A stretch of 64,000 bases of DNA, from assembly GCA_016185425.1 (NCBI GenBank), contig JACPNQ010000028.1, positions 1-64,000 on the forward strand. Direction: 5' to 3'. This DNA comes from Acidobacteriota bacterium. Its GTDB lineage: Bacteria > Acidobacteriota > Terriglobia > Bryobacterales > Bryobacteraceae. Positions 15,748 to 34,361 of this stretch are shown here, one piece after another (positions within the stretch are counted from its first letter, which is position 1; every line of letters starts with the position of its first letter). The notes beneath the pieces are model-generated. The model did no database searches. It saw nothing but the letters and a program-made list of their open reading frames with translations, and was not told where the DNA came from. A program made the translations under genes and the position numbers.

Positions 15748-18700
15748 TCAAAAGATGAATTTCAGGCCGAACTGGAGCTGGCGTCCGGTAGCCTGGGCGC
15801 CGCTCATTTTTCCGAATTCCGGATTGTTGTCGTTGCATGCCGAGCCGGGCGTACGGCCGATGCAGGTCATGGAGGGACTGTTGGAGCTGGGCAGGCTGAA
15901 GGTTGGGGTGTTGGTGAGATTGAAAGCCTCGGCGCGGAACTGGAGGCGCATGGTTTCCGTGAAGGCGACTTGTTTGAAGAGGGAGAAGTCGAAATTGACG
16001 GATCCGGGGCCTCGGGCTACACGGCGCGCGGAATCACCGAACAACTGAATGGGAGCGCCGGTGTTACTGGGCACCGTGCCCGGGACGCGGAAGGCAGCCG
16101 CATTGAAGAACAGATCCGGGCCGCGCCCGTTCTGGACCTGAATGGGTTCGCCTTTGACGCGATCGGGCACATTGAAAGTGTTGAAGATGGGAGGCAGACG
16201 ATTGGTGCGGATATCGGTGGGGAAGCCGCCGCGGAGGGTGGTGATGCCGTTAACCTGCCAGCCACCGAGTACGGCGTCGACAGCGCGGTTGCTGCTCAGC
16301 CAGCGTCTGCCAGCACCCCATGGCAATTCATAGCCATAGCTGATGTTGAATATGTGGGCTACGTCGATGGGCGCCAATCCTTTCTCCCGGGACAGATTGT
16401 AGGCGTCCAGGGCGATGGAAGTTCCTCCGTTCTGCGTGAAAGCGCTGGGCCCGGAGCCGCCCTCCTCCATGTTCTTCTGCCACGTGTAATTCGCCAAAAA
16501 GTTCAGTCCGTTCCGATGGCGCTTTTCGACGCGAAGATTGAAGGCGTTGTAATTCGATTTTGCCTTCGAGAACGTGGGAATGACGGTGCCATTGACCATG
16601 GGGTACGGACGGAGGCGCTGCACGTTTCGGCCATCGAGGGCGTACTCGAAGGGCACCTGATTCACGTTGATGAACAGAGTGGCCAGGTCACGGCCCCGGG
16701 CGCCCTGGTAGGACGTTTCGATGAGCCATGCTTCGGCGGGCTGGAACTGGATCGAGAAGTTGTACTGCTCGAGTTTGGGGAAGCGGGCGTCATGGAATCC
16801 CTGTGAGCGGATGGTGCGGGTTAGCGGAGAAGTGGCGCTATACCCCTCGAGCGTAATAGCTGTGGGGCCGGTTTCGACAGGAGAATTGATAGTGTAAGGT
16901 GGCGCGACGGTACGCGACGCGCTGACAACGGGTGCGACGAGCGCGGGCGTGTTTGGGTTGTTACCGGCGATCTGCGTCACCTCCTGGTTCTGATCGCGGA
17001 GACCATAGAAGATTCCGTAGCCACCGCGGAGCACCCAGCGGCGGCGCATCTGATAAGCAAAGCCGATTCGAGGCCCGATGTTGTTGTGGTCGCCGTCGAC
17101 GATGGCGCGGGTGTACCCATCTTTCCCGGGAACGGCGAAGCGGGTTTTGTCGAGATCGAAAAGACCGCCGCGGTCGCGGATGTCGATGGGCTGGGTGTAC
17201 AAGTCGTAGCGCAGTCCGAGGTTCAAGGTCAGATGTTTCGTCAACTTCCAATCGTCCTGGAAGAATGCGCCGAAATAGACATCGGCCTGCCGGCCCCAGT
17301 CGAGCATCTGGGTGCCCTGGATGAGACTGGGGAAGCCCATTAGGTAGTCGGCAAAGGGAGCGCCGGAGCCCGGCGTGTCGCTGCTGGAAGAGAAGATCGA
17401 CCCGAAGATGAACTGTCCGAAAAATGGGTTGCCGCGGAGGTTGTCGTAGCGATTGCGGCGAAGATCCGCGCCGATCTTCATGCCGTGGCTCCCGCGGTTG
17501 ACGGAGATGGTGTCGGCAAAGTGGAAGCGGTTTTCGTAGTTCAGGTCGCTCGAGCCGCCACCCCAACCGTCGAACTGCGTGGAGCCGGTGCCTTCGCCGG
17601 AGAAGTTGAAGGCGATGGATGGGAACCCTTTCACGGGGAAGGGGAAGAGAGCGACTTTGTTCTCGAGCGCGAATTTGACGCCATCGTTGACGCCATCGAC
17701 GAGGCGGCTGCCGTTGTGCCGCGTGTAGCCAGCGCGGAACTCATTAACGACGGTGGAAGAAAAGAGGTGCGTGTCACTGAGAACCGACTGGAAGATGTCG
17801 CGGTAAAGGGTGTTGCTGCCGCCAATGAATCCGTCGAATGAGCCCGGCTGGGGCGTGGTCTGGTTGCTTTTCGACACGCGTCCGAAGAGGTTGTTGTTGG
17901 CAGTGACGGCGTGATCGATCCGGACGTCCCACTGATCCTGATCGAAGCCGCGCGGAATCTGGCGGAAAAAATTCCGCGACTGGGCGCCGGCCGCGCCGAA
18001 GTTGGCGGAGGGGATGAGCCGCAAGACGGCGGCGGCGGAGGCGTTGATACGCGAGGCAGGAATGGTGGCATTCGTAAATGGCGTGCCGATTACGGTGCCA
18101 TTCGCGGCGAGCCGTCGTGAGGCCGGGTCAAAGATCGGAGTGCGGAGAGAGGATAGGTCGCCTCCGCGAATGGAGTCAGGGGGGACGCTGCCGATGCTGG
18201 AGGCGGATGCGGTGCGCTGGCGGGTTCCCTGGAAGTCGCCGAAGAAGAACGTTTTGTTGCGGATAATGCGGCCACCGAGAACTCCGCCATACTGGTTCTG
18301 GCGGAAAGCGGCACGAGGCAGTCCGGCGGCGTTGGTGAAGAAATTATTCGCGTCCAGCTTGTCGTTGCGGAGGAACTCGAATAGCGAGCCGTGCCAGGCG
18401 TTGGTTCCGCTCTTAATGGTGGCGCTGATGACGGCGCCGGCGGCGTGGCCGAACTCAGCGGAGAATGAGTTGGTCTTGACCTTGAATTCCTGCACCGCGT
18501 CCACGCTTGGCTGGTAAGCAATTCCGTTGCGGCCGATGGAGCCGGCGGTGACGGTGGTGTTGTTGTCGGCGCCATCGAGGAGGACTTCATTGGACGAGAA
18601 TCTCCCTCCGCCAGCGATGAAAGGCAGATTGGTGCCCATGCCGGTGACGGGCGTGGTGTTGCCGGCGAGCAGGCCGAGGGCGAACGGGTTACGGCCGTTG

Positions 18701-19134
18701 AGCGGCAACTCCAGGATCTTCTTGTTTTCGATGACCTGACCTAGCGACGATGTGTCAGCCTCCAGCAGCGGCGTGGACTCGGTGACCTGTACGGTTTCGA
18801 CGACATCGCCGGGAGTGAGCGTTAGCCGGACTGTGGCGTTCTGGTCGACCTGCAGTGTGAAAGAGGCGATGGTGGCGCGCTTGAAACCGGTGGCTTGTAC
18901 GGAGATGGAGTACTCACCGGCCGGCAGGAACGTGGCTAGAAACTCGCCGCGCGGGCCTGCGGAGCCGGTACGAGACAGGCCGGTGGACTTGTTCGCAACC
19001 GTTACCGCGGCGTTGGGCACGACGGCCTGCGTACTGTCCTCGGCGATGACGCTAATGGTGCCCGTGGCTGTCTGCGCGGCGGCGGATAGAGCGGCTAGCG
19101 CGGAAAGGGCGAGAAATGAGAGCGAGCGGCGCAT
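15748..19134 (-). CDS. TonB-dependent receptor 1, Oar-like
   Basis: Outer-membrane receptor of 1128 residues. It has a signal peptide (SFLALSALAALSAAAQ), a carboxypeptidase-regulatory-like beta-sandwich (~22-105, VPNAAVTVANKSTGLSRTG), a plug domain (~115-240, ILELPLNGRNPFALGLL, EVLLDGADNN) and a long beta-barrel ending with an aromatic residue (QLQFGLKFIF). Oar-type receptors are abundant in Acidobacteria and are thought to import glycans or peptides; the ligand here is unknown. It lies 97 bp downstream of the ECF sigma gene on the same strand, so the two may be functionally linked, though classical FecI-type signalling needs an anti-sigma factor that is not visible. Confidence 0.94.
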   Translation of the reverse strand: MRRSLSFLALSALAALSAAAQTATGTISVIAEDSTQAVVPNAAVTVANKSTGLSRTGSAGPRGEFLATFLPAGEYSISVQATGFKRATIASFTLQVDQNATVRLTLTPGDVVETVQVTESTPLLEADTSSLGQVIENKKILELPLNGRNPFALGLLAGNTTPVTGMGTNLPFIAGGGRFSSNEVLLDGADNNTTVTAGSIGRNGIAYQPSVDAVQEFKVKTNSFSAEFGHAAGAVISATIKSGTNAWHGSLFEFLRNDKLDANNFFTNAAGLPRAAFRQNQYGGVLGGRIIRNKTFFFGDFQGTRQRTASASSIGSVPPDSIRGGDLSSLRTPIFDPASRRLAANGTVIGTPFTNATIPASRINASAAAVLRLIPSANFGAAGAQSRNFFRQIPRGFDQDQWDVRIDHAVTANNNLFGRVSKSNQTTPQPGSFDGFIGGSNTLYRDIFQSVLSDTHLFSSTVVNEFRAGYTRHNGSRLVDGVNDGVKFALENKVALFPFPVKGFPSIAFNFSGEGTGSTQFDGWGGGSSDLNYENRFHFADTISVNRGSHGMKIGADLRRNRYDNLRGNPFFGQFIFGSIFSSSSDTPGSGAPFADYLMGFPSLIQGTQMLDWGRQADVYFGAFFQDDWKLTKHLTLNLGLRYDLYTQPIDIRDRGGLFDLDKTRFAVPGKDGYTRAIVDGDHNNIGPRIGFAYQMRRRWVLRGGYGIFYGLRDQNQEVTQIAGNNPNTPALVAPVVSASRTVAPPYTINSPVETGPTAITLEGYSATSPLTRTIRSQGFHDARFPKLEQYNFSIQFQPAEAWLIETSYQGARGRDLATLFINVNQVPFEYALDGRNVQRLRPYPMVNGTVIPTFSKAKSNYNAFNLRVEKRHRNGLNFLANYTWQKNMEEGGSGPSAFTQNGGTSIALDAYNLSREKGLAPIDVAHIFNISYGYELPWGAGRRWLSSNRAVDAVLGGWQVNGITTLRGGFPTDIRTNRLPPIFNTFNVPDRVKGEPIQVQNGRGPDLFFNAAAFRVPGTVPSNTGAPIQLFGDSARRVARGPGSVNFDFSLFKQVAFTETMRLQFRAEAFNLTNTPTFSLPSSNSPSMTCIGRTPGSACNDNNPEFGKMSGAQATGRQLQFGLKFIF

Positions 19135-20855: not shown

Positions 20856-21959
20856 CTACTGCAGGCGGAAGTTAACCTCAACTTTCGCGGCAACGATAAC
20901 GGGTGTGTCGTCTTTTGTGGCCGGCGAGAATCGCCACTGGCTTACGGCGATGACGGCGTTCTGGTCGAGGCCGGGATCGAGCGAGCGGAGGACCTCAACC
21001 TTTTGGGCCCTCCCTTCCGTATTGATCTCCATCGATAAGAGGACGCTACCCGTTATGCCGGCATCGCGCGCAGCCTGCGTGTATTCGGGTTCGACTTTAT
21101 GGACGACTCGCGGCGGCGTGACTCCCGGGTCACCAATCTTATGTACCTTCCCCTCCTGCGCATGGAGGAGGGCGACACCGGAGGCGAGCGTTGCGGTGGC
21201 GAGGAGGAGCGAGAGGCGGAATCGGCGCGTGATGGCAACGCGCGAAATAGCTGGATTGAGGATGGCCTCCAAGCGCGTTTCGAGCGGTGCGGTGTTGCTC
21301 ATGGCGACGGCAGCGGCAGGTACACTGTGGCAGTCGCGGGCAATTTCGACGAGGTGGGTGGCGTACTCGGCGGGGTCGATACCGTTCCGGAGGACGAGGT
21401 CATCACAGGCCTGTTCGCGCTCGGCGGCGGCACGGCGGGCGGCGTACCAGGCGAGAGGTTGGAACCAGAGAAAGGCGCAGACGATTTGTACGAAGAGCTG
21501 CGCGATCGTATCGCGGCGCGCGATGTGGGCTTCTTCATGGAGCAACACGCTCGCTCGTATCGCAGGGAGCCACCCGGTGGCTGATGCGGGGAGGAGGATT
21601 TCCGGGTTGAACAAGCCGAAGGTAAGAGGGACGGAGACGCGGTGGCGATTGTAGTGGAGCAGGGCAAAGGAGAGCAGCAGGCGGAGAAGGAGCAGCGTCG
21701 TGACGGTGTACCAAAGAGGAGCCAAAAAGTCGATAGACGCGGCGGCGGCGGCGGTTCGCGCGGTGACTTCGATGGCACCGATGCTGTCCGGTGCGAAGGT
21801 GTCCACGGGCAGCGTCGCGAGCAGCCATGCGGCGGGCACCGCGGCGAAGGCCAGCATCCAGACGGCGTGGCGCTGCGCGGCGGACGCGCGGCGCATGAGC
21901 GTATTGACAAAGGCCGCGACGGTGAAGAAGAGCGTGGATTTGAGGGCGAGTTCGATCAT
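20856..21959 (-). CDS. BlaR1/MecR1-like M56 metallopeptidase with TonB C-terminal domain
   Basis: A 367-residue inner-membrane protein. Three hydrophobic segments lie near residues 8-22, 34-52 and 78-102, with one more near 248-266. The zinc-protease motif H141-E-E-A-H145 and the downstream QACDDLVL helix supply metal ligands. Instead of a beta-lactam sensor, the periplasmic C-terminus (~280-367) is a TonB-like domain (VEPEYTQAARDAGITGSVLLSMEI, AVSQWRFSPA). In the BlaR1 paradigm the protease triggers removal of the BlaI repressor; here the TonB domain suggests an envelope or TonB-linked cue (inference). Its start overlaps the stop of the repressor gene (ATGA). Confidence 0.9.
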   Translation of the reverse strand: MIELALKSTLFFTVAAFVNTLMRRASAAQRHAVWMLAFAAVPAAWLLATLPVDTFAPDSIGAIEVTARTAAAAASIDFLAPLWYTVTTLLLLRLLLSFALLHYNRHRVSVPLTFGLFNPEILLPASATGWLPAIRASVLLHEEAHIARRDTIAQLFVQIVCAFLWFQPLAWYAARRAAAEREQACDDLVLRNGIDPAEYATHLVEIARDCHSVPAAAVAMSNTAPLETRLEAILNPAISRVAITRRFRLSLLLATATLASGVALLHAQEGKVHKIGDPGVTPPRVVHKVEPEYTQAARDAGITGSVLLSMEINTEGRAQKVEVLRSLDPGLDQNAVIAVSQWRFSPATKDDTPVIVAAKVEVNFRLQ

Positions 21960-22330
21960 TGGGCTTTGGCCTTTTCGATGATTTTGGAGAGCCGGTCAAT
22001 CTGCTGGGGCGTGAGCTTCTGTTTGGTGGAGCCGAGGAGCGAGACGGCCGCCTGGGCGGCGGAACCGTCAAAGAATGTATCGAGGAGATGACGCATGGCG
22101 GATGCGCGGGCCACTTTTACGGGCGTGGTGGCGGTATAGAGGTATTTTCCGGCGTGCTCTTCATGGACGACGGCGCCCTTGTCCTCGAGTATGCGGAGCG
22201 TGGTGCGTACGGCGGTGTAGCTGGGAGGATCCGGGATAGCGGTGTGGATCTCCGCGGCGGTGGCTCTTTCCAAGCGGAAAAGGGTGTCCATGATCTGGCG
22301 TTCGCGGCGGCTTAAATGGACCGTAGTCAT
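21956..22330 (-). CDS. BlaI/MecI/CopY-family transcriptional repressor
   Basis: A 124-residue winged-helix repressor: HLSRRERQIMDTLFRLERATAAEIH forms the first helices and PPSYTAVRTTLRILEDKGAV the recognition helix and wing. The C-terminal half (LLDTFFDGSAAQAAVSLLG) is the dimerisation region cleaved in BlaI/MecI. It is coupled to the M56 protease gene. I chose ATG 22330 as it gives the standard family N-terminus; the longer open frame runs back into citrate synthase. A dyad 49-66 bp upstream may be its operator. Confidence 0.92.
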   Translation of the reverse strand: MTTVHLSRRERQIMDTLFRLERATAAEIHTAIPDPPSYTAVRTTLRILEDKGAVVHEEHAGKYLYTATTPVKVARASAMRHLLDTFFDGSAAQAAVSLLGSTKQKLTPQQIDRLSKIIEKAKAQ

Positions 22331-22371
22331 TCCTATGACCCGACGGTACCACAACTTGTCCGTTCGCGATG

Positions 22372-23454
22372 TTAATTTCTTGGCATAGATGCCAAGTTTT
22401 TGGCATACGTCAGGCCGGCCGGCCCCGTATAGGCGGATTGGGGGCGGATGAGGCGGCCATCGCGCAGTTGTTCCAGGCAGTGTGCGGTCCACCCAAGGAC
22501 GCGGCCGGCAGCGAAGGTTGGCGTGAAAAGCTCGACGGGGAGACCGAGACCGTGGAGGAGGAGAGCGGTATAGAACTCGACGTTGGTATCGAGGCGGCGG
22601 TCCGGTTTGTATTCGCGGAGGAGGCGCAACGCGGTGGCCTCGACGTGGCGGGCGAGCGCGTAGAGTTTCCGGTCACCGGCCGTATTGTAGAAGCGTTCAG
22701 CGGCCGCGGCGAGCACGTCGGCGCGCGGGTCGCGGACCCGGTAGATGCGATGGCCGAAGCCCATAAGGCGTTCCCCGGCGGCGAGTTTGGCGCGGAGAAA
22801 GGGCTCGGCGTTTTCCGGTGTGGCGATGTCGAAGACCATCTGGAGGGCGGGTCCGGGAGCGCCGCCGTGAAGAGGGCCTTTGAGAGCGCCGATGGCTCCG
22901 GCGATGGCGGAGATTAGGTCCGAATGCGTCGAGATAATAACGCGCGCGGCGAACGTGGAAGCGTTGAGGCCGTGGTCGCAGACGGTGTTCAGGTAGGTTT
23001 CGAGCGCCCTGGCGGTTTCCGGAGGCGGTTCCGTTCCCGTTAGCTGGTGGAGGAAGTGGGCGGCGTGGTTTATGTCGGTTCGTACGGGCACGGGCGGCTG
23101 ATTGTGGAGGAGTCGCCAGTAGGTCCCGATGATGGTCGGGAAGGCGGCGACGGCTTTGGCGGTATCCGCTTCGCCTTCGAGGCTGAGCGTTCCGGCAGCC
23201 ATGCGGAGCGCATCAATGGGCGGTGTTCGCGCCGCCGCACATGCTTCCAGCAGGTGAAGCGCCGCGTCCGGGATTGCTCGATGTCTGGCGAGATCGTGCG
23301 TGTTGAGGAAGAGCCGCGCGACCTCTTCGAAACTGGCGCGAGGGGCGAGATCCTCGACGGCGTATCCGGCGAGCGTGAGTTGGCCGGCCTCACCATCGAC
23401 GTGGCTGAGGCGGGTGGAAGCGGCGACGACTCCGTCTAGTCCTTGGGTGGTCAC
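22372..23454 (-). CDS. Citrate synthase family protein with Glu at the catalytic Asp position
   Basis: Expected to condense oxaloacetate with acetyl-CoA or a related acyl-CoA. The 360-residue protein has oxaloacetate-binding H161 (CDHGLNAS), catalytic H196 in GPLHGG and H235 in GFGHRIYRVRDPR. At the site of the catalytic Asp (NVDF in GltA) it reads N-V-E293-F. The C-terminus carries ~14 residues beyond the usual YTGP end. The gene is divergent from a second citrate synthase with a DNA-binding domain, 43 bp apart. Citrate or 2-methylcitrate synthase cannot be separated from sequence reading alone, and altered activity is possible. Confidence 0.88.
   Translation of the reverse strand: MTTQGLDGVVAASTRLSHVDGEAGQLTLAGYAVEDLAPRASFEEVARLFLNTHDLARHRAIPDAALHLLEACAAARTPPIDALRMAAGTLSLEGEADTAKAVAAFPTIIGTYWRLLHNQPPVPVRTDINHAAHFLHQLTGTEPPPETARALETYLNTVCDHGLNASTFAARVIISTHSDLISAIAGAIGALKGPLHGGAPGPALQMVFDIATPENAEPFLRAKLAAGERLMGFGHRIYRVRDPRADVLAAAAERFYNTAGDRKLYALARHVEATALRLLREYKPDRRLDTNVEFYTALLLHGLGLPVELFTPTFAAGRVLGWTAHCLEQLRDGRLIRPQSAYTGPAGLTYAKNLASMPRN
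22379..22406. promoter_or_regulatory. TTGGCAT dyad plus third half-site, possible repressor operator
   Basis: CTTGGCATAGATGCCAAG (22379-22396) is a perfect inverted repeat with a 2-base centre, and a third TTGGCAT follows at 22400-22406. It lies inside the last codons of the citrate synthase gene and 49 bp or more upstream of the BlaI-type repressor start, a sensible operator position. It does not contain the TACA/TGTA core of classical BlaI sites. Confidence 0.35.
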
Positions 23455-23497
23455 TCTTCCAGGGTTTGGCGATTTGCATGTATTGTCAATATTGATT

Positions 23498-24673
23498 ATG
23501 GAATCAACCTATTACCTGGGCGCCAAGGAGGCCGCGGAGGCACTGGGGGTTTCGATGGCGACGCTTTATGCATATACAAGCCGAGGCCAATTGCGATCCG
23601 AGCCGGTTCCGCAGAGACCCCGGGAGCGGCGGTATTTGCGGGCGGATGTCGCCAGGCTGGGGGAGAGGAAGGAAGCGCGGCGGGACCCGGCGAAGGCCGC
23701 TGCGCGGGGGCTGCATTGGGGGAGCGCAGTGTTGGAATCGGGGATCACATTGATCCATGAAGGGCGGCTCTACTACCGGGGGAAGGATGCGGTGGAGTTT
23801 GCGGAGCGGGCGACGCTGGAGCAGGCGGCGGCGCTGCTTTGGGAAGGAGACTTCGATTTTCGCGACGCGGTAACGGTTGGACGGTTGGCGGGGAATGAGG
23901 CGATCACGCGGTTCCAGATGGCGCTGCCGGCGGCGGGTGCTTTGGACGAGGCTTCCTATGACTTGCGTCCGGCCGGAGTGCGCCGGACTGGGGCGCGCAT
24001 ATTACGGCTGCTAACGGCGGTGGCGGCCGGGCGGGAGGGTAAGGGTCCGATTCATAAGTCGTTGGCGGAGGCTTGGGGGGCGGAGGGCGAGGCGATCCGG
24101 ACGGCACTGGTACTTTGCGCGGACCATGAGTTGAATGCCTCGGCATTTACCGCGCGGTGCGCCGCGTCGGCGGGGGCGACGCCTTATGATGTCGTGTCGG
24201 CGGCGCTGGCGACTTTGAAGGGGCGGCGGCATGGGGGAGAGACGGAGCGGGTTGCGGCGCTGTTTGACGAGGCGGGCAGCGCGCGGGCGGCGTTGGGGCG
24301 GCGATTGCGAATGGGCGAAAGATTGCCGGGGTTCGGGCATCCGCTGTATCCGGCCGGCGACCCGCGTGCGGGGCTTTTGCTACGGCTCGCGGAACAGCGC
24401 GGGAGCCGGCGGGAATGGAAACTGGCGCGAGGGCTGATGAGCGCGGCGGCCGAGCTTGTGGAGGAGAAACCGAATTTGGATTTTGGGTTGGTGGCGATGG
24501 CGCGGGCTTATGGATTGCCGGCGGAGGCGCCGATCGTCTTGTTTGCGTTGGGGCGGACGGTGGGGTGGATTGCTCATGCGATGGAACAATACGCGACCGG
24601 GGAGTTGATACGGCCGCGGGCGAATTACACAGGGCCAGCGCCGGAGACCAGTTTGCCCGAGCGGAAGGTGTAG
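23498..24673 (+). CDS. Citrate synthase fused to N-terminal helix-turn-helix domain
   Basis: A 391-residue fusion. Residues 1-60 form an excisionase/MerR-like DNA-binding domain (YYLGAKEAAEALGVSMATLY, then YTSRGQL and RRYLRADVARL). Residues ~70-391 are a citrate synthase fold retaining H210 (CADHELNAS), H245 (KGRRHGG), H281 (GFGHPLYPAGDPR) and D328 (NLDF), all at the catalytic positions. I start at ATG 23498; the frame is open upstream but there it shadows the other synthase. Such HTH-citrate synthases are known as sequences but little studied; a metabolite-sensing regulator or moonlighting enzyme is an inference. Its 3' end overlaps the convergent amidohydrolase by 49 bp. Confidence 0.9.
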   Translation: MESTYYLGAKEAAEALGVSMATLYAYTSRGQLRSEPVPQRPRERRYLRADVARLGERKEARRDPAKAAARGLHWGSAVLESGITLIHEGRLYYRGKDAVEFAERATLEQAAALLWEGDFDFRDAVTVGRLAGNEAITRFQMALPAAGALDEASYDLRPAGVRRTGARILRLLTAVAAGREGKGPIHKSLAEAWGAEGEAIRTALVLCADHELNASAFTARCAASAGATPYDVVSAALATLKGRRHGGETERVAALFDEAGSARAALGRRLRMGERLPGFGHPLYPAGDPRAGLLLRLAEQRGSRREWKLARGLMSAAAELVEEKPNLDFGLVAMARAYGLPAEAPIVLFALGRTVGWIAHAMEQYATGELIRPRANYTGPAPETSLPERKV

Positions 24674-25898: not shown

Positions 25899-28800
25899 AT
25901 GCAATGCCTCGGGCGGTCCGTGATCTTTCTACTTGCTTCGATGGGAATGGCGGTTGCGCAGACCAATGCGGGCGCGATCACTGGAACGATAACCGATCAG
26001 CAGGCCGCGGCAATGGCAGGCGTGAAGGTGACCGCGACCAATCTCGCGACGAACGTGCAGCAGAGTTCGACGACGAGCAACGCCGGCGTGTACGCGTTGC
26101 CGGCGTTGGAACCAGGGTCCTATCGACTGACGGCGGAGGCGGCTGGATTTAACAAGCTGGTGCGGGGGCCGATCCGGGTTGTCACCTCGACGACCGTGAA
26201 TCTTGATTTAGAGATGCCGGTGGGAAATACGACGGTGGAGGTGACGGTGACGGCGGAGGCGCCGCTGGTGCAGGAGGCGACTTCGACGATCGCGTACTCA
26301 GTGAATCAGAAGCAGATCGATGAGTTGCCGCTGGCGAACCAGAGCGCGCTGCAGGTGATGTCGCTGCTGCCGGGGATCGTTGGTGAGCCGGGGAGTGAAG
26401 CGGCGGCGGTGACGACGGGATATGTGACGCCGGGGGGAGGGTTGTCGGTGTCGGGCGGACGTATGGGGTCGACGCAGTACATGGCGGATGGGGTGTCGAA
26501 CACGAGCCAGTTTCTGGGGCGGATCTCGCAGTCGTTCAGTTCGGACGCGATTGCGGAGGTGTCGGTGCAGCAGAACTCCTACAGCGCGGAGTATGGGCGC
26601 GTGGGCGGCGGCGTGGTGAATATGACGACGAAGTCCGGGACGAACCAGTTGCACGGGACGCTGTTTTCGTTCAGCCAGAACGATATTTTGAATGCGGCTC
26701 CGTACCGGAACACGTTCGATCGAAAAGGCATGGTGCGCTACTGGCGCGGGGGAGTGGATGTCGGCGGGCCGGTGATGATTCCGAAAATCTATGACGGCCG
26801 GAACCGGACGTTCTTCTTCGCGGGGTTTGAACCGCTCCGGCAGTATACGCAGAGCAGCGGGTTTGCGCGAGTGGCGACAGACGCGGAACGAGAGGGTGAT
26901 TTTTCGCAGTCCGTGTATAACACGGCGACGAACCAGAAGATCTATGTTTTCCGCCAGTTTGAGTACAACCTGTCGGGAACCGGATTGACGAATCAGCGGA
27001 TTGTGCTGCCTGCGAATACGGCGTATCCGCAGTTTCCGAACAACGTGATTCCGAAGAATCTGATCTCGCCGATCGGGCAGAAGGTGCTGAAGCTGCAGCC
27101 GATGCCGAACATGCCATTGAATGCGTTAGGGCAGAACTATTCGGTGTTCCGGAACGTGCGGAATACGGACAACCGGTTCTTGGTGAAAGCGGACCAGGTG
27201 ATCAGGAGCAACAACCGCATGTCGTTCCGCGTGGCGCAGGTGCCGGTGCACGGGGAGCGTTATTTCATGGGCGGGCTGATTGAGCAGGTGCCGACGGATA
27301 CGAGTACGGGGACGAACCTGGCGTTTACCGATACGCACACGTGGGGCGGGAACAAGGTGAACGAATTCCGGGCGGGATTCAACCGGTCGAGCATTACGCG
27401 GCGCGAGAAGAATTCCCAGTTAGAGCAAGACTACTTCGCGCAGTTCGGATTCCCGTCCGTTTTGAAGAAGGGGTTTCCGACGTTGAGCACGGGCGATAGC
27501 CAGGTGCAGAGCTTTGGGAGCAGCGTTGGGAATTATGAGATTGACAACTTCTTTCAAGTTACAGACATCGTGAATTACACGCGCGGGAAGCATAACATCA
27601 AAACCGGATTTGAGTTTCAGGCGCCACAGCAGAACCTGATCGACTACGCGAATGTGGGCGGGAGCTGGAGCTTCAATTCGAGCATGACGAATATCGGCTC
27701 CGGCAGTACGGCGGCGGTGTTGGGAATCCCCAATGCGCAGACGGGATTTGGGATTGCATCGCTGCTGCTGGCTTACCCGAACTCGGTGAGCATGGCGCCG
27801 GCGGTGATTCCGTATCAGTACCGGTGGAAGTATTACGCGGGCTTTTTGCAGGACGACTTCAAAGCGGCGCGGCGGCTGACGTTGAACCTGGGCGTGCGGT
27901 ACCAGGTGGAGGTGCCCCGGTCGGAGAAGCATCACAATCAGGGCTATTTCGTACCTGGGACGGTGACGACGTCGACTGGCGCGCAGGCCGGCGGATACTT
28001 GCAGTTGAACGGATTGGGCGGGGCGATCAATACGCTGTGGCCGACGCGGTATAACAACTGGGAACCGCGAATCGGGTTTGCGTACCGGCTGCCGAAGCTG
28101 GTGCCAGGGTTGAGCGTGCTGCGCGGCGGATACGCGATTACACACACGCCGACGACCGGGCTGTTCCGCATACCGATTCCGGATCTGAGCCCGAGGGCGG
28201 CGGCGCTGGCGGCGAATGGATCGGCGAACGGCGGGTATGTGCAGATGGATAATTTCCCGCTCGTGATTCCGAATAGGGGATTCAGTTTTCCCTCCGGCGG
28301 GAAGGTTGTCGATCTGACCAATGTGCAGACGGTCTATAACCTGAATCCGAATGTGACGATTCCCTATGTGCAGCAGTGGAATTTCGGGTTGGGCTGGCAG
28401 TGGGGAAACAACTACGGCCTGGAGATGAATTACGTGGGGAACAAGGGTACGAAGCTGTTCGGACCTTCGTCGCTGTACAACACGATCAATCTTCCGGTTT
28501 ACGCGCAGCAATATTTGGCTGGTGTGAATATGGCGGAACGGGTTCCCAATCCGGCGGGACTGCAGGATCAGAACGGAAATCCGATCACCGTCGCGCGGCA
28601 GGATCTGCTACGCGGGATTCCGACGATGAGCAGTATCGGCGATCCGCTGGCGCAGGGGTACAACTCGAGCTATAACGCGCTGCAGATGAACTTCGTGAAG
28701 CGGTTCACGCATGGAGTGCAGTTCAACATCAATTACACGTGGATGAAGTCGACGGATAATTCGTCATGCGACGGGCAGTTCTGCAACGACAACATTCAGA

Positions 28801-29528
28801 ACTGGGGCGTCGGCTTCCCGCAGTTGCGAGGCGGAAGCAGGAGACTGGAGCATTCGATTTCGGTCTACGACATTCCGAGCGTGTTCCGGTTCAACTACAA
28901 CTGGGATCTGCCGGCGGGAAGAGGGAAATTGTTGGGGCGGAATGCGCCGTCGTGGCTGAACCAGTTTGTGGGGAATTGGAAGATGAGCGGAACGGGGTCG
29001 GCATCGAGCGGGCTGCCACTGCAGGCGTTGTTGGGAAACACGGCGGGATTCCCGGACGACGTGGGGCAGATTCGACCGAATATCGTGCCGGGGGTGAACG
29101 CGGTGATGCCGGGGTGGCGAGAGAACGTAAACAATCCGGCGACGCAGAGGGCGCCCTATGTGAATTCGCTGGCCGTGTTTACGCCACCGGCGTTTCTCAC
29201 GACGGGGACAGCGACGCGGGTGCTGGACAACATTCGGATGCCGCACACGGTGACTTATAACATGGCGATTCTGAAAGAGTTCTACATCAAAGAACAGATG
29301 CGCTTCGCCTTCCGCGCGGAGTTGTATGGGGCGTTTAATCATCCGTATTTCCAGACGAACGGGAATAACTTCACCGTGTATCAAAACCTGGATTACTCGA
29401 AGGTCAGCGCGGCGAACAACTTTACGCCAGCGGTGACTTCGGCAAATGTGAATCCGGCTTATGCGGATATCGGGGCGAACATTGGCGGGACGCGGCGAAT
29501 TCAGTTGGGCTTGAAGTTCTACTTCTGA
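25899..29528 (+). CDS. TonB-dependent receptor 2, Oar-like
   Basis: A 1209-residue outer-membrane receptor: signal peptide ending AVAQ at residue 21, regulatory beta-sandwich (~25-105, AMAGVKVTATNLATNVQQ), plug (~120-240, IDELPLANQSALQVMSLLPG, MADGVSNTSQF, YSAEYGRVGGGVVN) and a barrel ending IQLGLKFYF. It lacks the LPLNGRNP plug motif of receptors 1 and 3 and has ELPLANQS instead. It is divergent from the amidohydrolase (59 bp) and overlaps the convergent wHTH membrane regulator by 10 bp. Confidence 0.94.
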   Translation: MQCLGRSVIFLLASMGMAVAQTNAGAITGTITDQQAAAMAGVKVTATNLATNVQQSSTTSNAGVYALPALEPGSYRLTAEAAGFNKLVRGPIRVVTSTTVNLDLEMPVGNTTVEVTVTAEAPLVQEATSTIAYSVNQKQIDELPLANQSALQVMSLLPGIVGEPGSEAAAVTTGYVTPGGGLSVSGGRMGSTQYMADGVSNTSQFLGRISQSFSSDAIAEVSVQQNSYSAEYGRVGGGVVNMTTKSGTNQLHGTLFSFSQNDILNAAPYRNTFDRKGMVRYWRGGVDVGGPVMIPKIYDGRNRTFFFAGFEPLRQYTQSSGFARVATDAEREGDFSQSVYNTATNQKIYVFRQFEYNLSGTGLTNQRIVLPANTAYPQFPNNVIPKNLISPIGQKVLKLQPMPNMPLNALGQNYSVFRNVRNTDNRFLVKADQVIRSNNRMSFRVAQVPVHGERYFMGGLIEQVPTDTSTGTNLAFTDTHTWGGNKVNEFRAGFNRSSITRREKNSQLEQDYFAQFGFPSVLKKGFPTLSTGDSQVQSFGSSVGNYEIDNFFQVTDIVNYTRGKHNIKTGFEFQAPQQNLIDYANVGGSWSFNSSMTNIGSGSTAAVLGIPNAQTGFGIASLLLAYPNSVSMAPAVIPYQYRWKYYAGFLQDDFKAARRLTLNLGVRYQVEVPRSEKHHNQGYFVPGTVTTSTGAQAGGYLQLNGLGGAINTLWPTRYNNWEPRIGFAYRLPKLVPGLSVLRGGYAITHTPTTGLFRIPIPDLSPRAAALAANGSANGGYVQMDNFPLVIPNRGFSFPSGGKVVDLTNVQTVYNLNPNVTIPYVQQWNFGLGWQWGNNYGLEMNYVGNKGTKLFGPSSLYNTINLPVYAQQYLAGVNMAERVPNPAGLQDQNGNPITVARQDLLRGIPTMSSIGDPLAQGYNSSYNALQMNFVKRFTHGVQFNINYTWMKSTDNSSCDGQFCNDNIQNWGVGFPQLRGGSRRLEHSISVYDIPSVFRFNYNWDLPAGRGKLLGRNAPSWLNQFVGNWKMSGTGSASSGLPLQALLGNTAGFPDDVGQIRPNIVPGVNAVMPGWRENVNNPATQRAPYVNSLAVFTPPAFLTTGTATRVLDNIRMPHTVTYNMAILKEFYIKEQMRFAFRAELYGAFNHPYFQTNGNNFTVYQNLDYSKVSAANNFTPAVTSANVNPAYADIGANIGGTRRIQLGLKFYF

Positions 29529-30814: not shown

Positions 30815-30899
30815 CTTCGCGGGGGTGGTAAACCTGAGGGTAACATGATTGCCCCCATGTTTCGGGCATGAGGAGCGCGCATGTACAGGGAGGTCCGCT

Positions 30900-33800
30900 A
30901 TGAGCGTTTTCGGGCGGCTAATGGCGCTTTGGATGATGTTGTGCGCAGGAGCATGGGCGCAGACGACTACGGGAACGATTACCGGCACAGTGACCGATTC
31001 CGCGGGCGCGATGGTGGGCGCGGCAACTGTGAAGCTGGTGAACACCGGGACCGGGCTGGCACAGACGGCGGATTCCGGAGAGAACGGGAACTATGTTTTC
31101 CCGCTTGTGCAGCCGGGGAATTACGAGATTTCGATTGAAAAGGTGGGGTTCCAGCGCTTCGTGCGGACGTTTACGCTGGCGGTGACGCAGCAAGCGCGCA
31201 TTGACGCCCAGTTGGCGGTGGGGCAGGTGAGCGAGTCGGTGCAAGTGAGCGCGGCGGCAGTTGTGTTGGAGACAGACACGTCGAATTTGGGGCAGGTAAT
31301 CACCAATCGTCAGGTAGTGGACTTGCCATTGAATGGGCGGAATCCTTTCGCGCTGGCGGCTTTGACGCCAGGCGTGACGCCGCTCGCAAGTTTCGGTGCG
31401 GGAGTTGTGGGAGCGAGGGGAGCGGCGCAGTCGGCCGGAGCGAACAACTTTTTGGCGAATGGGGGGATGACGGGGTCGAATGAGATCTTGCTCGACGGGA
31501 TTCCGATCACGGTTTGTTGCCAGGGACAGCCCGCACTGATTCCGACGATTGATACGACTGAGGAGTTCAAGGTGCAGACGAATACGTCGCCGGCGGAGTT
31601 CGGGCGGACATCGGGCGGGATCTTGAATATTGTGACCAAGAGCGGGACGAACCGTTTTCATGGCACAGCATACGAGTTCTTCCGGAACGAGAAACTGGAT
31701 GCGGCGAACTTCTTTGTGAATCGGGCAGGGACGAATCCGATTCCCGGCCGCGACGACCGGCGGACACCGCTGCGGTATAACCAGTACGGCGCATCGGCCG
31801 GCGGGCCGGTGGTGGTGCCGAAGGTCTACAACGGCAAGGACAAGACATTTTTCTTTGCGAACTTTGAGATTGTGAATTTGCGCAGGTCGCTATTCCGGAC
31901 GTTCAGCGTGCCGACGTTGTTGATGCGGACGGGAAATCTGACCGAGGGGCCGTCGGACGTGTACGATCCGGCGACGACGAGGCCGAATCCGGATGCGGCG
32001 GGACGTTATTTGCGGACGCCATTCCCGGGGAAGATCATTCCGGCGGCGCGGTTGAACAACGTGGGACAGAACATATTGAAGTTGTATCCGGCGCCGCAGC
32101 GGGCGGGCGTGGTGAACAATCTGGATTCGGTGGCAAGCTCGCGGGATGACGATAAGCAGTTGAGCTTCCGGTTCGACCACAACTTTTCTGAGCGGAACCG
32201 GTTATTCGGGCGGTATAGCCGCCTATGGAACGACCACTATGAACCGAACTATTGGAACAGCGTGTCGTCGCCGGCGGGGTTCAACCAGTTCATCAAGAGC
32301 CATACGCTGGTGCTGGACCAGATCTCGACGATCCGTCCGACGCTGGTTTTGAATTTACGGTACGGATTTGCGCGGCAGAGGAATTTCCGCGATCCGTATT
32401 CGTTGGGGACGGATTTGGGGGCGCTGGGGTTCTCCCAGCTCTACACGCAGCAGGTGCAGGAGCGGTTCCTGCCGGCGATTTCGATCAACGGGTTCAATGG
32501 CAACGATGAGACGGGCAATCAGCGGTTCACGCGGTATTCGCATACCCTAGCGGCAGCGCTATCGATCGTAAGGTCGTCGCACAACATCAAGCTGGGTTGG
32601 GATGGGCGCGTATTCCTGGATCACAATGCGAGCCTGGGCACGCCGGGCGGCAGCTATTCCTTCGGAACGACGTTTACCTCGGGGCCCGATCCGCTTACGG
32701 GGGTGCCGGGCGGGCAGGCGCCATTTTCGAGCTTCGGGTCGTATTTATTAGGGTTGCCGACGGGAGGGTCGTTGACCTACTCCGATGCGACATCGCAGCA
32801 GGGCTTCTATCATGCGGTGTATGTGCAGGACGACTGGAAGGTAACGCGCAAGCTGACGCTGAATATCGGGCTGCGGTGGGAGATGGAGACGGGTCCGACC
32901 GAGCGTTACAACCGCCTGGCGACGATTGATCCTAACGTAACATCGCCGCTGGCGCAGCCGACGGGATTGCCGCTGAAGGGCGGGCTGATATTCCGCGGAG
33001 TCGGCAGTGCGGACCGGGCGCGCTACAAGACGGATGCGAATAATTTCGGACCGCGGTTTGGGTTTGCCTACTCGGCGACGCCGAAGACGGTTGTCCGCGG
33101 CGGGATTGGCGTCTTCTATTCACCGGGCCTGGTGCGGCTGTTTAACGGCGGCAATCCGGGGTTCACGGTGACGACGCCGTTCGTGGCGACGATTGATGGA
33201 GTAACGCCGGTGGGCAACTTGACGAATCCATATCCGGGCGGGCTGGTGCCGCTGTCGGGATCGTCGCAGGGCTTGTTGTCGCTGGTAGGCACGGGGATAT
33301 CGGGATTGACGTTTGACACGCCGCTGCCGTATTCCACGCAGTGGAACTTCGGCGTGCAGCGGGAGTTCCCCGGGGCCGTGTCGTTAAACGTTTCGTATGC
33401 GGGAAACCGGGGTGTGAAGCTGCCGGTGAACACGAATTTGAATGCCGTGAATCCGCTGCTTTACGGAACAGTGGGCGATTTGAATCGAGTGGCGCAGTTG
33501 AATGCGCTGGTGAACAATCCGTTCTTCGGATTGATATCGACGGGAACGCTGGCGGCGCGGCAGGTGCAGCAGAATCAATTGCTGCGAGCGTATCCGCAGT
33601 TTACGGGGTTCGGAATCAACTTTCTGGGCGCGGGGAATTCGACGTACCATGCCCTACAGGTAAGCGCGCAGAAACGAATGAGCAAAGGACTGCTCGCGAC
33701 GTTGAGTTATACATTCTCGAAGAATCTGGGCGATGTGAATATGCTGACCACATCGTTCTTCGATGCCGGGCAGAACCCGGGGTATCAGAATGAGTTCAAT

Positions 33801-34361
33801 CGCGCGGCGGACAAGAGCGTGCTGGGTTCGGACTTCCCGCAGCGGCTGGTAATTTCCAGCGTGTACGACTTGCCGCTGGGGAAAGGGCGGCTGCTGGGCG
33901 GTTGGCAGGTGAACGGGATCTTCACCTATCAGTCGGGCCAGGCATTAAACTTTGGCGTGTCCGGAGCGCCTGCGTACGCCGGGTCGCGGCCGAGTTTCAC
34001 GGGCTCGAACGTGCAGGCGCCCGGTGGGTATACGGACCGCTTGGGAGGGGCGTCAGGCGGACCGGGGTATTTGAATGCCGCGGCGTTCCGGATACCGTCG
34101 TCGTTTGAGTTCGGCAACACGCCCAGACTGGATGGGCGGAACCGGGGTCCAGCGACAAAGGGTTTGGATTTCTCGCTGATCAAGAACATTCCGATCGTGG
34201 AGAACTTGCGCGCGCAGTTCCGCGCCGAGGCGTTCAACTTAACCAATACGGCCGTTTTCGGGTTGCCGAATACGACGGTGGGTAATCCCGGATTTGGGGT
34301 GATTGGGGGCCAGGTGAATCAGCCGAGGAATTTGCAGTTGGCGGTGAAGATGATTTGGTAG
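30900..34361 (+). CDS. TonB-dependent receptor 3, Oar-like
   Basis: A 1153-residue outer-membrane receptor: signal peptide MSVFGRLMALWMMLCAGAWA, regulatory beta-sandwich (~25-105), plug with VDLPLNGRNPFALAALTPG and EILLDGIPIT, and barrel ending LQLAVKMIW (terminal Trp). I chose ATG 30900, preceded by GGGAGG, rather than an upstream in-frame ATG that would put 17 charged residues before the leader. Divergent from the wHTH membrane regulator; msrB starts 9 bp after the stop. Confidence 0.94.
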   Translation: MSVFGRLMALWMMLCAGAWAQTTTGTITGTVTDSAGAMVGAATVKLVNTGTGLAQTADSGENGNYVFPLVQPGNYEISIEKVGFQRFVRTFTLAVTQQARIDAQLAVGQVSESVQVSAAAVVLETDTSNLGQVITNRQVVDLPLNGRNPFALAALTPGVTPLASFGAGVVGARGAAQSAGANNFLANGGMTGSNEILLDGIPITVCCQGQPALIPTIDTTEEFKVQTNTSPAEFGRTSGGILNIVTKSGTNRFHGTAYEFFRNEKLDAANFFVNRAGTNPIPGRDDRRTPLRYNQYGASAGGPVVVPKVYNGKDKTFFFANFEIVNLRRSLFRTFSVPTLLMRTGNLTEGPSDVYDPATTRPNPDAAGRYLRTPFPGKIIPAARLNNVGQNILKLYPAPQRAGVVNNLDSVASSRDDDKQLSFRFDHNFSERNRLFGRYSRLWNDHYEPNYWNSVSSPAGFNQFIKSHTLVLDQISTIRPTLVLNLRYGFARQRNFRDPYSLGTDLGALGFSQLYTQQVQERFLPAISINGFNGNDETGNQRFTRYSHTLAAALSIVRSSHNIKLGWDGRVFLDHNASLGTPGGSYSFGTTFTSGPDPLTGVPGGQAPFSSFGSYLLGLPTGGSLTYSDATSQQGFYHAVYVQDDWKVTRKLTLNIGLRWEMETGPTERYNRLATIDPNVTSPLAQPTGLPLKGGLIFRGVGSADRARYKTDANNFGPRFGFAYSATPKTVVRGGIGVFYSPGLVRLFNGGNPGFTVTTPFVATIDGVTPVGNLTNPYPGGLVPLSGSSQGLLSLVGTGISGLTFDTPLPYSTQWNFGVQREFPGAVSLNVSYAGNRGVKLPVNTNLNAVNPLLYGTVGDLNRVAQLNALVNNPFFGLISTGTLAARQVQQNQLLRAYPQFTGFGINFLGAGNSTYHALQVSAQKRMSKGLLATLSYTFSKNLGDVNMLTTSFFDAGQNPGYQNEFNRAADKSVLGSDFPQRLVISSVYDLPLGKGRLLGGWQVNGIFTYQSGQALNFGVSGAPAYAGSRPSFTGSNVQAPGGYTDRLGGASGGPGYLNAAAFRIPSSFEFGNTPRLDGRNRGPATKGLDFSLIKNIPIVENLRAQFRAEAFNLTNTAVFGLPNTTVGNPGFGVIGGQVNQPRNLQLAVKMIW

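Follow-up and report, generated by a model that had tools for sequence, protein, structure and literature searches.

A citrate synthase fold joined to a DNA-binding head: a candidate local transcription factor with a conserved operator

In a bacterium of the family Bryobacteraceae (Acidobacteriota; GenBank assembly GCA_016185425.1) two citrate synthase genes face away from each other across a very short gap, and the product of one of them begins with a DNA-binding domain. This raises the question whether the fusion protein is one more enzyme or a regulator of the divergent promoter region in which its own gene starts. We analyzed the locus in the window, which comprises the 64,000 nucleotides at positions 1 to 64,000 of contig JACPNQ010000028.1, together with homologous loci from other genomes.

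The divergent citrate synthase pair

An earlier note on this DNA had described two citrate synthase genes diverging across 43 bp, and both ORFs as well as the gap were present. The following features were distinguished:

22372..23454, minus strand: plain citrate synthase of the CitA/PRK12350 type (P0002, 360 aa, GTG start), the proposed target gene of the fusion
23455..23497, no strand: divergent intergenic gap of 43 bp with the left part of the operator and the presumed promoter elements of both genes
23484..23489, minus strand: TTGACA, a putative -35 element for the plain citrate synthase gene, which shares positions with the left half-site of the operator
23486..23507, plus strand: putative operator TCAATATTGATTATGGAATCAA, 22 bp, with three TTGA/TCAA half-sites (TCAAT-A-TTGATT-ATGG-AATCAA)
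23498..24673, plus strand: HTH-citrate synthase fusion (P0001, 391 aa), the proposed autoregulated local transcription factor

A third citrate synthase is encoded on another contig of the genome. It has the best family score and is probably the housekeeping enzyme. Regarding the surroundings, a penicillinase-repressor-like (BlaI) gene, followed by a gene for a BlaR1-type M56 peptidase protein with a TonB domain at its C-terminal end, was found on the minus strand at 20856-22492 of the window. Three ORFs of more than 1,100 aa flank the region (15748-19134, 25899-29528 and 30849-34361); judged by eye, they have the look of carboxypeptidase-regulatory/TonB-receptor-type outer-membrane proteins.

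The fusion consists of a winged HTH_17/MerR-like head (aa 6-53), a helical linker (about aa 54-80) and a citrate synthase fold (aa 84-380). The DNA-binding N-terminus previously suggested for this product was recovered by the Pfam model HTH_17, narrowly above its cut-off (28.4 vs 27 bits), together with the citrate synthase domain (Citrate_synt, PF00285, 4.4e-62, aa 74-374), and MerR_1 was narrowly below its cut-off (20.7 vs 21.6 bits). None of the curated NCBIfam citrate synthase subfamilies passed, the best score being 152.7 bits vs 421.3 for TIGR01800. The AlphaFold2 model (mean pLDDT 92.7, pTM 0.81) displayed winged-HTH secondary structure and a citrate synthase fold, with low confidence in the linker region. 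With this model the best Foldseek match was PrpC (3o8j, E 1.2e-15), and methylcitrate synthases and Mtb CitA were among the matches.

The catalytic residues H245, H281 and D328 named in the earlier note are all present in the fusion, accompanied by H210, R290, R353 and R372. The three arginines correspond to known oxaloacetate/citrate-binding Arg residues, and these four catalytic-site residues and three arginines were retained in 94-97 of 97 fusions. The (nearly) invariant residues of the fusions are found in two places, namely this oxaloacetate/citrate site and the recognition-helix segment TLYAYVSRG (aa 20-30). The latter had the highest mean identity among the regions tested (86% vs 61% for the citrate synthase core).

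The plain enzyme scored 354.2 bits with NF009005 (curated cut-off 332) and is therefore of the PRK12350 type. E293 is present at the usual Asp position as noted before, and with it the note implied a contrast between a plain copy defective through Glu and a complete fusion. This contrast is wrong. By sequence score, no solved relative is closer than B. subtilis CitA (2c6x), which carries the same Glu in the aligned motif TNVEF, so that the check whether Glu is normal in a functional subfamily was answered positively. Furthermore, Glu was found in all 49 divergent non-PrpC partner citrate synthases of the homologous loci having this column, and Asp in five PrpC partner enzymes. Judged from the alignment and these counts, which rule out Glu293 as a sign of decay, it is the normal residue of the CitA/PRK12350-type subfamily.

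Data from Caulobacter crescentus speak against the contrast as well. According to PMC7083601, an E. coli gltA mutant grows with CitB but not with CitC; published identities to B. subtilis CitA are 37% for CitB and 32% for CitC. A member of the fusion family was present in 28 of 31 Caulobacter genomes, mostly with another citrate synthase gene next to it in the opposite orientation. Based on this synteny and the published identities, CitC (CCNA_03758) is very probably the fusion and CitB (CCNA_03757) the plain partner. The Glu-type enzyme is therefore likely functional, and the failure of CitC in the gltA assay indicates that a complete triad alone does not make the fusion a working citrate synthase.

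A conserved operator at the fusion gene

When 84,980 species genomes were scanned with the fusion alignment, at least 583 relatives were confirmed, and the best 80 were used as genome loci. These 80 belong to Acidobacteria, Chloroflexi, Proteobacteria, Deinococcales, Gemmatimonadota, Verrucomicrobia, Armatimonadetes, Actinobacteria and other groups; further fusions were present in plasmid records. Within its own phylum the fusion is rare and patchy (8 of 297 Acidobacteriota genomes), and in the family sample it occurred in one other genome. It is not a common property of the genus, being absent in all 18 sister species examined.

The AT-rich stretch and the dyads described earlier for the gap are present and form part of a longer site, TCAATATTGATTATGGAATCAA, which extends beyond the gap across the ATG of the fusion and covers its start codon. 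Upstream of fusion starts the consensus of this operator is TCAAY-N-YTGAT-N4/5-ATCAA. The search pattern TCAAYNYTGATN{4,8}ATCAA, derived from the 96 homologous loci and fixed before the genome scans, occurred within -200..+30 of the fusion start in 86 of these same 96 loci, which come from many phyla, and a relaxed form in 89. These loci are not independent: related species contributed many of them, and the 80 genome loci are the best-scoring of at least 583. The strict site was missing near the start in ten loci; L061, L067 and L116 lacked even the relaxed pattern. Dinucleotide shuffles matched in 0 of 1,920 cases for the strict pattern and in 1 of 1,920 for the relaxed form, and no match was present in 100 kb of control loci in which a citrate synthase occurs without the fusion. 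Outside the -200..+30 stretches there were four matches in 961 kb of loci, among them those of L050, L052 and L108, which belong to the same locus at a greater distance from the fusion start.

Since the pattern was derived from the same loci, the genome scans are the fairer tests. In the 6.64-Mb genome of the window TCAATATTGATTATGGAATCAA was the sole match, and the reversed-pattern control gave none. Fifteen of 16 other fusion genomes carried the site at the fusion gene, with only three sites elsewhere in all 16, and the 18 sister species without fusion had only four scattered pattern matches. Among loci found later, the site was located at the start region in 10 of 10 from Caulobacter and 5 of 7 further Acidobacteriota, in addition to the window itself. 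A large regulon was not seen in these scans; the additional matches in P. bryophila (L145, L146) are isolated cases close to unrelated genes. The conserved operator is tied exclusively to the fusion gene, and this linkage is far beyond chance. The operator core is 23 bp long except in the Acidobacteria/Chloroflexi/Deinococcus clade, where it measures 22 bp in all loci but L058. The architecture of the site therefore tracks the phylogeny of the fusion.

Exchangeable partners and promoter geometry

In 87 of 96 loci the fusion gene was divergent from one of five partner types: a plain citrate synthase (47), a family III CoA-transferase (26), an HMGL-like synthase (6), prpB or prpBC (6) or a DUF2332 protein (2). 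At least 12 switches of partner type were counted on a quick tree of the fusions, a count that takes in a mixed 'other' class, and the operator stayed. The fusion thus keeps its place while the neighbour changes, which is the behaviour of a local regulator and not that of a pathway enzyme. The common theme of the partners is acyl-CoA and 2-oxo acid handling.

The HMGL-like partners (L036, L059, L061, L108, L116 and L120) resemble homocitrate/isopropylmalate synthases, far below every curated cut-off. Roseomonas-type bacteria have a DUF2332 protein opposite the fusion (L039:2851-3903 and L044); in L072 and L093 DUF2332 genes adjoin citrate synthase, which links this family to the system. The divergent partner in Xanthomonadales is prpB-prpC (L102:2803-4932, also L112, L122 and L125-L127), and both prp products exceed the curated equivalog cut-offs. 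In two Chloroflexota loci (L050:3988-4947 and L052:4039-4998) a threonine-dehydratase-like gene of the PALP family lies between operator and fusion, so that the site is found ~1 kb upstream of the fusion, in the gap that borders the divergent citrate synthase gene. A connection with propionyl-CoA (2-oxobutyrate) chemistry is hinted at by the presence of prpBC and threonine dehydratase beside the fusion. No PrpB over the curated cut-off was found in the genome of the window, and methylcitrate is therefore only one ligand candidate.

On the partner strand the left half-site reads TTGA(C/T). A -10-like nAnnnT was located exactly 17 bp from the half-site hexamer in 53 of 90 loci, compared with 16 or fewer at each of the other spacings between 10 and 35. 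This peak was present separately in loci with plain citrate synthase (26/45), CoA-transferase (18/26) and prp partners (6/6). In the gap of the window a simple sigma-70 scan detected no consensus promoter, and the window's own elements, including the -10, are weak. Taken across the loci, the operator appears to cover the -35 box of the partner whichever type the partner is, and repression is therefore favoured.

Regulator, enzyme or both

On the basis of these comparisons, the fusion is most probably a dedicated one-component transcription factor that acts locally, controls its own gene and senses through a citrate synthase fold. That it regulates its own divergent promoter region, as had been proposed, receives strong comparative support from the cross-phylum operator at the fusion gene, the exchangeable divergent partners and a divergent arrangement that crosses phyla; binding itself is predicted.

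Citrate synthases are known to dimerize and to undergo domain closure. We infer that a dimer, as expected for this fold, would offer a pair of winged-HTH heads that could occupy the inverted repeat TCAAT-N-TTGATT-N4/5-AATCAA, the operator in the divergent gap. Since the operator overlaps both the putative -35 box of the partner and the start region of the fusion, occupancy would most simply repress both, that is, the partner promoter and the fusion's own gene. A ligand in the old active site would trigger domain closure and thereby change DNA binding, by release or by rearrangement. Plausible ligands are oxaloacetate, a citrate-like tricarboxylate (citrate, 2-methylcitrate) or a short acyl-CoA.

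It is possible, though doubtful, that the fusion is a trigger enzyme, which would regulate while still working as a (methyl)citrate synthase and would report flux by the occupancy of its own active site in turnover. Given the retention of the active-site residues the fusion may still be catalytic, and its fold is nearest to PrpC and Mtb CitA. However, the retained residues are equally compatible with ligand binding without turnover, the likely counterpart CitC does not rescue E. coli gltA (PMC7083601), and aa 119-195 of the fusion showed the lowest conservation (38%). Additionally, a fusion of the Deinococcales (L069:3858-5117), situated on a long branch of the tree, has lost H210, H245 and D328 and kept the operator. 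DNA recognition can therefore outlast catalysis, and this protein offers a natural candidate for a member whose role is regulation alone. A still-catalytic sensor would also be part of the most far-reaching picture, to which we give a rather low probability: a phylum-spanning transcription factor family in which turnover of acyl-CoA and 2-oxo acids would set the grip on the operator, so that a DNA-bound enzyme would measure carbon entry and adjust the condensing or CoA-handling enzyme opposite.

Tentatively, the fusion could instead act as an activator which, beside the partner -35, recruits or reorients RNA polymerase in the manner of MerR. The HTH_17/MerR-like head would suit this role, and a second reading, with TTGATT, a 19-bp spacer and a TATAAT-like element, was found in L005, L049 and L051. 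The MerR-type spacer of 19-20 bp may fit some loci of Acidobacteria and Chloroflexi, whereas the dominant geometry is the 17-bp spacer downstream of the half-site. In most loci the half-site is itself a near-consensus -35 (TTGAC) with this spacer; such a promoter needs no activator, and a bound protein would block it.

That the fusion is only an enzyme, its HTH being vestigial or serving another role and the conserved site belonging to an unlinked transcription factor, is very improbable. The conserved active-site residues would agree with it. Against it, the site is paired with the fusion nearly 1:1 in many phyla although the remaining neighbours differ, no tested part is more conserved than the recognition-helix segment, and sister species without fusion contain only the few scattered matches mentioned above. 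A recent local duplication with a decaying plain copy (Glu for Asp), as two adjacent citrate synthase genes in one genome might suggest, is ruled out for practical purposes by the separate clades of fusions (SH-aLRT 100) and plain partners (SH-aLRT 99) and by Glu being the rule in the partner subfamily.

If the fusion is a regulator, as we prefer, a whole class of metabolic genes has been mistaken for enzyme genes: the protein occurs in hundreds of bacterial genomes (at least 583 confirmed matches), and the records seen call it citrate synthase. It would represent a new ligand-sensing fold among one-component regulators and could serve as a natural biosensor that responds to citrate, methylcitrate or short acyl-CoA. 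With the exact operator sequence at hand, the idea can be put directly to the test in tractable species (Caulobacter, Agrobacterium, Paraburkholderia).

The earlier note had considered the regulatory function undescribed, and our searches of open-access literature gave no description of a citrate-synthase-fold regulator, of the fusion as a regulator or of the operator. The NCBI annotation 'citrate synthase family protein' covers the same proteins, e.g. ATU_RS25370 of Agrobacterium fabrum C58, as enzymes without regulatory role or operator. Caulobacter CitB and CitC (CCNA_03757/03758) are likewise adjacent citrate-synthase paralogues; unlike the role proposed here, no regulator role or HTH is described for CitC in the available text of PMC7083601. 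The fusion as a regulator is thus apparently undescribed, although enzyme-fold regulators as such are already known. MocR/GabR proteins (PMC5734734, PMC4944035) also carry an N-terminal wHTH on a whole metabolic-enzyme fold, keep ligand-site residues and have metabolic targets. However, membership in MocR/GabR is defined by a GntR-like wHTH and a PLP aminotransferase fold; the fusion combines an HTH_17/MerR-like head with a citrate synthase fold without PLP, and its operator is different.

In B. subtilis, citA is flanked by the divergent LysR-type regulator gene citR. In both cases a divergent regulator accompanies a CitA-type synthase that has Glu in place of the usual Asp. CitR belongs to the ordinary LysR proteins, whereas here a citrate-synthase-fold protein fills the regulator slot. 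PrpR of Salmonella and Xanthomonas citri (PMC12153269) is comparable in that a regulator gene lies beside prpB and controls methylcitrate-cycle genes. The palindrome bound by X. citri PrpR, GTTGCAA-N2-TTGCAAC (PMC12153269), is unrelated to the fusion operator. In Pseudoxanthomonas, Stenotrophomonas and relatives the fusion, and not PrpR, occupies the divergent place upstream of prpB. The fusion of Xanthomonadales is likely a non-orthologous replacement at the place of the PrpR reported in X. citri.
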